From: Hyphomicrobiales bacterium
GTDB lineage: Bacteria > Pseudomonadota > Alphaproteobacteria > Rhizobiales > Devosiaceae
Direction of reading: 5' to 3'
NCBI GenBank assembly: GCA_027487555.1
Contig: JAIYDI010000004.1
Location: forward strand, 186,001 to 250,000
Length of the DNA stretch: 64,000 nt
The translations under genes were made by a program, and so were the position numbers. Below, piece after piece: positions 20,605 through 54,128 of the stretch. The number at the start of each line of letters is the position of its first letter. Position 1 is the stretch's first letter. Below the pieces are notes generated by a model. The model made no database searches and was not told the DNA's origin. It was given only the letters and a program-made list of their open reading frames with translations.

Positions 20605-20620
20605 GGCAGGCCCCCCAGAG

Positions 20621-20719
20621 CGCTTTCAGGGAAAGCTGGATGACTTTCCCGGTTCGAAAGCGCGACAAAACAATGGCTTAGATCATGTCCGCGTTTCAAC
20701 CAAAACGTGAAATGATCTA
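20621..20719. repeat. Two-hairpin intergenic repeat, copy 1 (RIME-like)
   Basis: This ~99-bp element is built of two palindromes. The outer arms CGCTTTC/GAAAGCG with inner GGGAAAG/CTTTCCC span 20621-20662. TAGATCAT/ATGATCTA spans 20679-20719. Its reverse complement aligns along its whole length with the element at 51316-51414 (shared TTGTTTTGTCG, CTTTCGA, TTTC blocks). Its edge supplies the TAG stop of the ORF at 20717-20911. Size and two-palindrome layout recall Rhizobium RIME1 elements. Confidence 0.75.
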
Positions 20720-20911
20720 GCGGACGCCATTGCTGGCGGCATCAGAGAGGTGGATGGCCGCGTGCGAAAAGCCGACCTCCACAGGTTTGGCTTCGGCCTC
20801 GGCGGCGGCCTGGTCAGAAATGACAGTCACCCCCGGCCAGCCGATCTGCCCGATGCGGCCAGCGTTCGGCACGACGATCATGATGGACCCGAGCCGCCTG
20901 CGCCGCGCCAT
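20717..20911 (-). pseudogene. Probable remnant of an ABC transporter ATP-binding protein C-terminus (TOBE-like)
   Basis: This 64-residue ORF starts at an ATG overlapping the upstream dehydrogenase stop (TGATG). The sequence ..GRIGQIG..VTVISDQAAAEAEAKPVEVGFSHAAIHLSDAASNG resembles the end of a CUT1 ATPase, where such proteins finish with 'V.F.P..IHLFD..TG'. No Walker or signature motif is present. Sugar operons with Gfo/Idh, RpiR and glycosidase genes normally include an ABC importer, so this could be what remains after a deletion. The frame ends inside the palindromic repeat. It could also be an unrelated small protein. Confidence 0.38.
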
Positions 20912-49140: not shown

Positions 49141-51318
49141 ATGGATTTCGAGATTTCGCCGGATGACCGCGTCGGAGGCGCGCCCAGGAAGGGCGGCAGG
49201 CCGACGCCGGCCGCAAAGCGCGTGGTCAAGAAGCCGGCGCGCGGGCGGAAGGCGGAACCTGGCTTTGCGGAATCGGGCGAGGTCTATCTCGACGACGACG
49301 ACCTGCCCACGCCGACCCGGCGCGGACGATCGAGCCGCGGCGGAAAGCCGGAAAAGGCGCCGCGCGGCAGGCGGCGGCGCGAGAAGAAGCCGCTGACCTT
49401 TGGCCGGGTCGTGCTGAAGCTCATAGGCTGGTTGTTCATTCTGGGTATCTGGGGAGCGATCGCCGTGGGTGGCGTGGTGGGCTACTACGCCTTCCAGCTG
49501 CCGCCCGCCGACACATGGAAAGTGCCCGACCGGCCGGCCAATATCCGCATTCTCGCGGCCGATGGGCAGTTGATCTCGAACCGCGGCAAATCTGGCGGCG
49601 AGGCGGTATCGCTGCACGAGTTGCCCTATTACGTGCCGGCAGCCTTCGTCGCCATCGAAGACCGGCGGTTCTACGAGCATTTCGGGCTCGACGTGATCGG
49701 GCTGGCCTCGGTGGCGCTCGAAAGCGTGCGGGCTGGTGGCGTGACGCGCGGCGCCTCGACGATCACTCAGCAGGTGGCCAAGAACCTGTTCCTCACCCCG
49801 GACCAGACCCTGGGCCGCAAGGTGCAGGAAGCAGTGCTGGCGCTGTGGCTGGAGCGGAACTACACCAAGGCGGAGATCCTCGAGCTCTACCTGAACCGGG
49901 TGAATTTCGGCCACGAGAAATACGGCATCGAGGCCGCGGCGCAGTTCTATTTCGGCAAATCGGCGCGCAACCTGTCGCTGTCGGAAGCGGCGATCCTCGC
50001 CGGTTCGCTGCAGGCCCCGTCGCGGCTGAACCCCAAGGGCAAGCCGGAACTGGTGCAGGCGCGGCAGCAGCTGGTGCTGAAGGCCATGGCGCGCGAGGGC
50101 TATATCTCGGACGCCGAAGCGAAGGCGGCGACCATCGACCAGGGCGAGACGGTCCGCACGCGCGTCGTGGGCTCGGAAAGCTATGTGGCCGACTGGGTCG
50201 AGACGCTGATGACCGCGTATCTCGGCGACCTCAAGGATGATGTGATCGTGCGTACCACGATCAACTGGGACCTGCAGAAGCAGGCGGAGTTCGTGCTGCG
50301 CGAAGCCGTGGCCCAGCACGGCAAGGACATGGGCTTCGGCCAGGGTGCCATGGTGGCGATGGATGTGGATGGCTCGGTTCGGGCGCTCGTGGGCGGCATC
50401 GACTACACCCAGAGCCAGTTCAACCGCGCCGTGACATCGCGCAGGCAGCCGGGCTCGACCTTCAAGGCGTTCGTCTATCTCGCCGGCATGGAAAAGGGCT
50501 ACACGCCCGATACGGTGGCGGATGATGCGCCGATCGACATCAATGGCTGGCAGCCCGCGAATGCCGACGGCAATTTCAACGGACCGATGACGCTGCGCGA
50601 GGCGCTGGCCAAATCGCGCAACACGATTGCCGCCGTGCTGGCCAACGATGTCGGCCCCGAAAAGGTGGTGGAGGCCGCCATGCGGCTCGGGATTTCCTCG
50701 CCGCTGCAGCCGGTGCCCTCGATTGCGCTCGGCACGCAGGAAGTGTCGCTGCTCGAAATGACGGCAGCCTATGCGCCCTTCGCCAATGGCGGCATCGGGG
50801 TGATCGCCAATGTCATCACCCGCATCGAGACGCCGGACGGCAAGGCGCTCTATGACGCGGTACCGGCCGGTCCGGGCCGTGTGATCCAGCCCAATATCGT
50901 GGCGGAAATGAACGACATGCTGCACGCGGCGGTGGAAATCGGCACCGGCAAGCGCGCCCAGCTCAATGGCTGGCCGATGGCGGGCAAGACCGGCACCAGC
51001 CAGAAGGCGCGCGATGCGTGGTTCATCGGCTATACGTCACGCATGGTGACTGGCGTGTGGCTGGGCAATGACGACGACGTGGGCACCAAGCTGTCGGGCG
51101 GCAATATTCCGGTCGAGGTGTGGAGCCAGTTCATGGCCAAGGCGCACGAGGGCATCCCGGTGGCGGACCTGCCTGGGCTGGTCGGCGCGATGAGCACCGA
51201 CGGCACGTTGCAGCCCATGGAGCAGCCGGTGGTGAATGCGCCGACCGAGCCACAGCAGGGGGAACGGCCGAAGCGTACGCTGACCGACCTGCTCGAAGGC
51301 ATATTCGGCGGCGGCTAG
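49141..51318 (+). CDS. Class A penicillin-binding protein (PBP1A family)
   Basis: This 725-residue bifunctional peptidoglycan synthase has a long basic, disordered cytosolic N-tail (1-85, rich in RR/KK), one TM helix (~90-112) and a GT51 transglycosylase domain (IEDRRFYEHFGLD; GASTITQQVAKNLFL; catalytic Glu in each block). A transpeptidase follows with SxxK (RQPGSTFKAF), SxN (KSRNT) and KTG (AGKTGTSQ). The start has no good Shine-Dalgarno. The TAG stop codon is the first base triplet of the palindromic repeat at 51316. Confidence 0.92.
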   Translation: MDFEISPDDRVGGAPRKGGRPTPAAKRVVKKPARGRKAEPGFAESGEVYLDDDDLPTPTRRGRSSRGGKPEKAPRGRRRREKKPLTFGRVVLKLIGWLFILGIWGAIAVGGVVGYYAFQLPPADTWKVPDRPANIRILAADGQLISNRGKSGGEAVSLHELPYYVPAAFVAIEDRRFYEHFGLDVIGLASVALESVRAGGVTRGASTITQQVAKNLFLTPDQTLGRKVQEAVLALWLERNYTKAEILELYLNRVNFGHEKYGIEAAAQFYFGKSARNLSLSEAAILAGSLQAPSRLNPKGKPELVQARQQLVLKAMAREGYISDAEAKAATIDQGETVRTRVVGSESYVADWVETLMTAYLGDLKDDVIVRTTINWDLQKQAEFVLREAVAQHGKDMGFGQGAMVAMDVDGSVRALVGGIDYTQSQFNRAVTSRRQPGSTFKAFVYLAGMEKGYTPDTVADDAPIDINGWQPANADGNFNGPMTLREALAKSRNTIAAVLANDVGPEKVVEAAMRLGISSPLQPVPSIALGTQEVSLLEMTAAYAPFANGGIGVIANVITRIETPDGKALYDAVPAGPGRVIQPNIVAEMNDMLHAAVEIGTGKRAQLNGWPMAGKTGTSQKARDAWFIGYTSRMVTGVWLGNDDDVGTKLSGGNIPVEVWSQFMAKAHEGIPVADLPGLVGAMSTDGTLQPMEQPVVNAPTEPQQGERPKRTLTDLLEGIFGGG

Positions 51319-51414
51319 ACCATTTCAGCGTTTCAACCGAATCGTGAAATGGTCTAAACCGTTGTTTTGTCGGGCTTTCGAGGCAGGAAAGCCATGCAAC
51401 TTTCCTTCGAAGCG
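51316..51414. repeat. Two-hairpin intergenic repeat, copy 2 (RIME-like)
   Basis: The ~99-bp element fills the gap between the PBP and gyrB stop codons. A perfect 12-bp inverted repeat TAGACCATTTCA/TGAAATGGTCTA (51316-51356) is followed by GTTGTTTTGTCG. A second nested palindrome (CTTTCGA..AGGAAAG..CTTTCCT..TCGAAG) ends it. It aligns over its length with the reverse complement of copy 1 at 20621-20719. The first TAG is the PBP stop codon. Confidence 0.78.
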
Positions 51415-51416
51415 TA

Positions 51417-54128
<2,712 letters not shown>

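Follow-up and report, generated by a model that had tools for sequence, protein, structure and literature searches.

Short mobile repeats of the kind analysed here are already known from RUP, Correia, BOX and RIME and, judging from passages of one report (PMC2229807), the nearest well-studied parallel is RUP with IS630-Spn1. As passages of PMC2229807 and PMC3049150 describe it, this 107-bp repeat of S. pneumoniae, of IS630-Spn1 type, is like our element in size, in its approximately 100 copies, in its TA target, in its IS630-like terminal repeats and in its bias towards convergent genes. It differs in sequence and in host; moreover our element has no presumed autonomous partner in its genome, prefers CTAG and carries ends that would rebuild TAG stop codons.

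Repeat-supplied stops without truncation are also known, from the BOX repeats of S. pneumoniae, where passages of PMC3049150 place the ends of 36 genes inside a repeat-encoded stop without strong evidence of truncation. BOX shares with our element these stops and the enrichment between convergent genes, and differs in its modular structure and IS family; a rule by which TA plus G regenerates the stop is not described in those passages of PMC3049150. The Correia/NEMIS and ERIC sequences, in the passages of PMC2229807 and PMC10969869 concerning them, are likewise small and mobile; they carry terminal repeats, fold as RNA and affect mRNA, but their sequences are unrelated to ours and RNase processing has been shown for them. 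Finally, the Rhizobium-specific intergenic mosaic elements (RIME; Osteras 1995, cited in PMC2573895) are, in the part of PMC2573895 that characterises them, short intergenic palindromic repeats of Hyphomicrobiales like the element studied here, a likeness of description.

Here we analyse an element that is, with good confidence, a non-autonomous IS630-type (Tc1/mariner-like) MITE that inserts at TA and regenerates stop codons, its present copies being the presumed survivors of selection. What is useful beyond the systems above is the stop-regeneration rule, which would give a simple mechanical reason for small repeats to supply stops without shortening proteins. The analysis also places a widespread repeat of the Hyphomicrobiales, probably akin to RIME, among the IS630-type MITEs. 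For annotation, genes ending inside such repeats are to be expected, and some of the TAG stops in these genomes are repeat-made.

Two inverted copies of a two-hairpin element

The window, that is the whole 64-kb stretch of DNA analysed here, carries two mutually inverted copies of the element, each with two hairpins, as seen in sequence and alignment. A first, sequence-only reading had recognised inverted copies with matching palindromes, and both elements, their orientation and their two hairpins are seen in the sequence as it described them. It placed them at 20621-20719 and 51316-51414; the element is indeed present there, but its true ends lie about 5 bp further out, at 20615-20720 and 51315-51420, where each terminus reads CTAG or a decayed version of it. 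The element is about 105 bp long, with two hairpins and CTAG at each end, and the family consensus is CTAGATCATTTCACGTTTTGGTTGAAACGCTGAAATGATCTAAGCCCTTGTTTTGTCGCGCTTTCGAACCGGGAAAGTCATGCAGCTTTCCCTGAAAGCGCTCTAG. The features of the two copies are as follows.

20615..20720, minus strand: copy 1, in which hairpin 1 precedes hairpin 2 when read along that strand (alignment; profile match 20616-20720, E 8e-34)
20717-20720: hairpin-1 end of copy 1, CTAG
20615-20618: hairpin-2 end of copy 1, CTAG decayed to CCAG
20679..20719, minus strand: hairpin 1 of copy 1 (sequence; family fold and pair counts)
20620..20663, minus strand: hairpin 2 of copy 1 (sequence; family fold and pair counts)
51315..51420, plus strand: copy 2, CTAG at both ends (profile match 51315-51419, E 5.5e-23; sequence)
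51316..51356, plus strand: hairpin 1 of copy 2 (sequence alignment and minus-strand profile match)
51372..51414, plus strand: hairpin 2 of copy 2 (sequence; family fold)

Hairpin 1 of copy 2 (51316-51356) has its centre inverted relative to the family consensus, with a minus-strand match to model positions 4-49, as if the palindrome had been flipped.

Abundance, gene context and relatives

The repeat had been proposed to be spread over the genome rather than confined to two sites, and this was borne out by a profile search of the 4.53-Mb genome (52 contigs), which gave 131 matches at E<=0.01, a figure that includes inverted half-hits on the same copies. Resolved with their flanks, 98 separate copies were obtained, 70 of them full length. 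The genome holds about 100 copies or more, far beyond chance. Among the 70 full copies, 39 lie between convergent genes, 29 between tandem genes and 2 between divergent genes or none, against 49, 246 and 53, respectively, in the sampled genome. The suggested link of the family to gene 3' ends is seen genome-wide as an enrichment at such ends.

Copy number is uneven among congeners, ranging from none to more than 60. When the conserved-core pattern was compared with GTDB genomes only three exact matches were found, and those in named genomes belonged to Devosia and Pelagibacterium, so that the host is probably a Devosia or closely related to that genus. Relatives of the element are present on replicons of Sinorhizobium, Agrobacterium and Allorhizobium, with a full-length relative at 72.6% identity on Sinorhizobium megaplasmids. 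A resemblance to RIME1, proposed early on from size and layout, is supported as far as these relatives in Rhizobiaceae replicons go, and by description the element is probably kin to RIME; we know of no IS630 origin or TA target for RIME1.

Solitary hairpin-1 units occur on S. meliloti megaplasmids (L243/L244 around 2501-2548; L246), and in Sinorhizobium sp. K101 a full element adjoins such a unit. A different repeat lies beside the element at L241 2591-2741 and is found at no more than 10 places per Sinorhizobium replicon.

Genes that stop at the ends of the element

Reading frames were judged by a codon-usage score for which the window served as training set, and the stop positions of the genes facing each element end were scored. 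How often the terminal TAG ends a reading frame, a check already proposed from the sequence, can be answered for the whole genome: 43 gene-facing ends among the 98 copies stop exactly at the terminal TAG (or at TAA after one change). The full-length set holds 38 such exact ends, in 32 of its 70 copies. In 6 copies, copy 2 of the window included, each element end provides the stop of one of two convergent genes. The genes at copy 2 are listed below.

49141..51318, plus strand: penicillin-binding protein (PBP) gene, transglycosylase and transpeptidase (Pfam PF00912, PF00905), ending in the element
51316..51318, plus strand: TAG stop of the PBP gene, TA probably from the target and G from the element
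51417..53873, minus strand: gyrB (Pfam PF00204, PF00986), ending in the element from the opposite side
51417..51419, minus strand: TAG stop of gyrB, TA being the presumed second target copy (orthologue C-termini)

In the sequence-only reading the terminal TAG was the stop of the adjacent gene at both window copies. This is the case at copy 2, for the PBP gene and also for gyrB, which had been missed, but not at copy 1. The copy 1 frame that ends at 20717 has a weak codon score of 12.5, while the neighbouring GFO/IDH oxidoreductase gene scores 167, and it gave no hit in Pfam or, with tblastn, in the plasmid collection, which leaves the proposed ABC-ATPase remnant unsupported. The GFO/IDH oxidoreductase gene stops 194 bp earlier, and the decayed end of copy 1 (CCAG) sits just upstream of an rpiR-type regulator gene.

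The proteins themselves were compared with orthologues from up to 18 congeners. For gyrB, radC, smpB, hisN, rlmE, tsaE and an epimerase gene, the orthologues have no element at the matching place and end at the same final residue or no more than a few positions away from it, with TGA, TAG or TAA as the stop. Because these element-free orthologues end at or near the same residue, the native stop codon of the seven genes is where the element lies, and on the evidence of their C-termini we reject the idea that coding 3' ends were truncated by the insertion. That the main effect is insertion into gene ends, or the evolution of protein tails, is not supported: the C-termini of these genes are unchanged relative to orthologues, and genes read into the element at about 11 ends only.

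At about 10 ends the gene enters the element in a frame in which the terminal TAG is not read, and it runs to a TGA that in most cases lies 25 or 34 nt into the element. Such read-through genes gain short element-coded tails, for example at C39:27791, C24:240149, C22:82789 and C41:22553.

Folding of the element and mRNA 3' ends

The fold of the family consensus consists of two hairpins (-44.5 kcal/mol), hairpin 1 being followed by a U-rich linker. These hairpins were taken from consensus folding and pair counting; RNAalifold, run on the copy alignment, returned no structure. Pair cells are kept at 89.6%, and in 9 pairs both partners have changed, values that nearly all shuffles fall short of; part of this conservation is owed to subfamilies. 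Together with the position of 39 of the 70 full copies between convergent genes, the two strong hairpins, the kept pairs and the linker would suit an mRNA 3'-end module, acting as a bidirectional terminator or exonuclease barrier, that the host maintains at stops for that function.

We consider such a module unlikely, since single copies break pairs (91 cells) more often than they keep them through a one-sided change (40 cells), and neither window copy has a canonical Rho-independent terminator (a G+C-rich stem with a T run directly after it). Moreover some congeners have no copies and others more than 60, and the orthologous gene ends manage without the element, while a convergent bias is also found in the parasitic repeats RUP and SPRITE, according to passages of PMC3049150. 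Searched at the gathering score, Rfam gave no match within the window. A folded transcript may nevertheless secondarily shape mRNA 3' ends.

Insertion at TA

For the IS630-type MITE that we favour, the insertion site can be read from the ends. Where the terminal TA is intact the inner base is nearly fixed (left G in 31 of 31, right C in 27 of 34), and the outer flanking base is variable, with C...G preferred. In G029, whose copies are near-identical and young, 7 of 8 copies have CTAG on the left, and on the right CTAG or CTAA is found.

As had been suggested, occupied sites were compared with empty ones in relatives, and the empty sites read CTAG or CTAA. Specifically, five loci of relatives (in G003, G014, G001 and G007, and a second G011 locus) read GGTTCTAGGGGC with an uninterrupted CTAG, and the occupied counterpart in G010 reads GGTTCTA[GAGC...GCTC]CAGGGGC, its second TA decayed to CA. 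At another site, GCC TAA in G003 stands against ACT TAG plus the element in G011. A Sinorhizobium copy comes directly after GAGCTAG, where a gene ends that carries the annotation rsiB2 in another strain; this GAGCTAG is also present in S. meliloti, there lacking the element, although the right flank is rearranged. The right flank is lost in the L260/G010 alignment, and L256/G035 is not a clean empty-site pair.

The best reading of these sequences is that an element GA...TC inserts at TA with a 2-bp duplication, the occupied/empty pairs all having a decayed TA. A 4-bp duplication of CTAG is disfavoured by the left CTAG and right CTAA seen in the young G029 copies.

Proposed regeneration of stops and the availability of targets

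We propose that the element inserts at TA, with CTAG (YTAR) preferred, and that the TA would be duplicated in the process. With an element that starts with GA and ends with TC, each insertion would bear TA-G at both ends, read inward, and a TA target followed by G at both ends would thus regenerate TAG on either strand. Where the TA that is hit forms part of a TAA or TAG stop, that stop would be rebuilt as TAG and the protein left unchanged; where convergent genes share a CTAG, both stops would be rebuilt. Protein-neutral insertions would then persist, and those in genes or promoters would presumably be lost by selection.

At 33 of the 38 exact ends the reconstructed pre-insertion codon is TAG or TAA, and at the other 5 it is a sense codon (TAC or TAT). 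Ends that do not serve as stops have an intact TA in 33 of 124 cases, whereas stop-serving ends keep it by definition; the loss of TA at unused ends is consistent with selection for the stop after insertion, and does not prove it. As a tentative and rather unlikely extension, the G after TA at both ends might be an adaptation that makes any landing in TAA or TAG silent on either strand, in which case stops, and the shared CTAG of convergent genes, would be safe sites for the whole IS630-type class.

The use of stops was set against the available targets in approximately 463 kb of the same genome outside the copies. The CTAG sites there number 20 at stops, 74 in intergenic DNA and 67 within predicted genes. 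Up to 100 nt from a gene end the ratio of exact to near positions is 38:51 for the element, against 21:21 for CTAG sites (p 0.46) and 33:61 for YTAR sites (p 0.36), neither difference being significant. Since the exact-stop share near gene ends matches the availability of CTAG and YTAR, stop-codon targeting is unneeded there. When all non-genic CTAG sites are considered, stop use is 32:38 for copies and 20:74 for sites, about three times that expected (p 0.001), an excess that calls either for other sites to be selected against or for a degree of targeting.

This excess is what speaks for active recognition of stop codons or gene 3' ends by the element or its transposase, beyond the TA/CTAG preference. 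Such recognition is nonetheless very improbable, given that exact and near use follow site availability close to gene ends and that the overall excess is expected if promoter-near insertions are lost. The simplest reading is that target preference, combined with the loss of insertions in genes and promoters, explains the bias towards gene ends and convergent genes. In passages of PMC3049150 the same convergent bias of pneumococcal RUP and BOX is explained by the authors along the same lines.

Probable relationship to IS630-type transposons

The IS630 transposase domain PF13358 gave no match at E<=1e-5 in the window's genome, and an IS630 transposase is absent from the copy-rich G011 as well; some relatives have one. 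G016 and G038 carry full IS630 elements, of 1052 and 1087 bp respectively, with the ends TAGAGCGGTTTCC and TAGAGC(A/G)TTTTCC on both sides, and single ends of the same kind occur in G001, G041 and G052. The transposons of these five genomes have the same termini as our element, TA-GAGCryTTTC, and differ from it in being approximately 1.05-1.09 kb long with a transposase, which the element lacks. After the TA, the G052 IS end and the G029 element end are identical at 18 of 20 bases, most other IS/element pairs matching over a short stretch. The IS630 ends were searched for by a pattern derived from the element itself; at IS630 loci this pattern has a density about 20-30 times that of background DNA.

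As in IS630-type MITEs, the element has TA flanks at both ends (a presumed duplication, the second TA being decayed in the pairs), terminal inverted repeats in common with the IS630 elements of relatives over short stretches, a short length without a transposase gene, and many dispersed copies. There is no autonomous IS630 partner in the window's genome; such a partner in the same genome is typical, yet not required of a fossil MITE family. Its ends suggest that the element was moved by an IS630-type transposase, which this genome no longer has. A repeat of the REP/BIME type, mobilised by a RAYT (tyrosine) transposase, would equally be palindromic, largely intergenic and of high copy number, but is extremely improbable in view of the TA at both ends, the precise empty sites (CTAG/CTAA) and the terminal repeats common to IS630 elements.

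G029 carries a broken IS630 (L353, G029:C5:60895) with one end resembling hairpin 1. Its broken transposase is the only one of IS630 type found among seven other copy-bearing genomes, and the G029 copies are the most uniform. In G041 the IS630 end is present twice in tandem, as TAGAGCGTTTCCGGTTTAAT and then TAGAGCATTTCCGGTTTAAC (L329 1352-1400).
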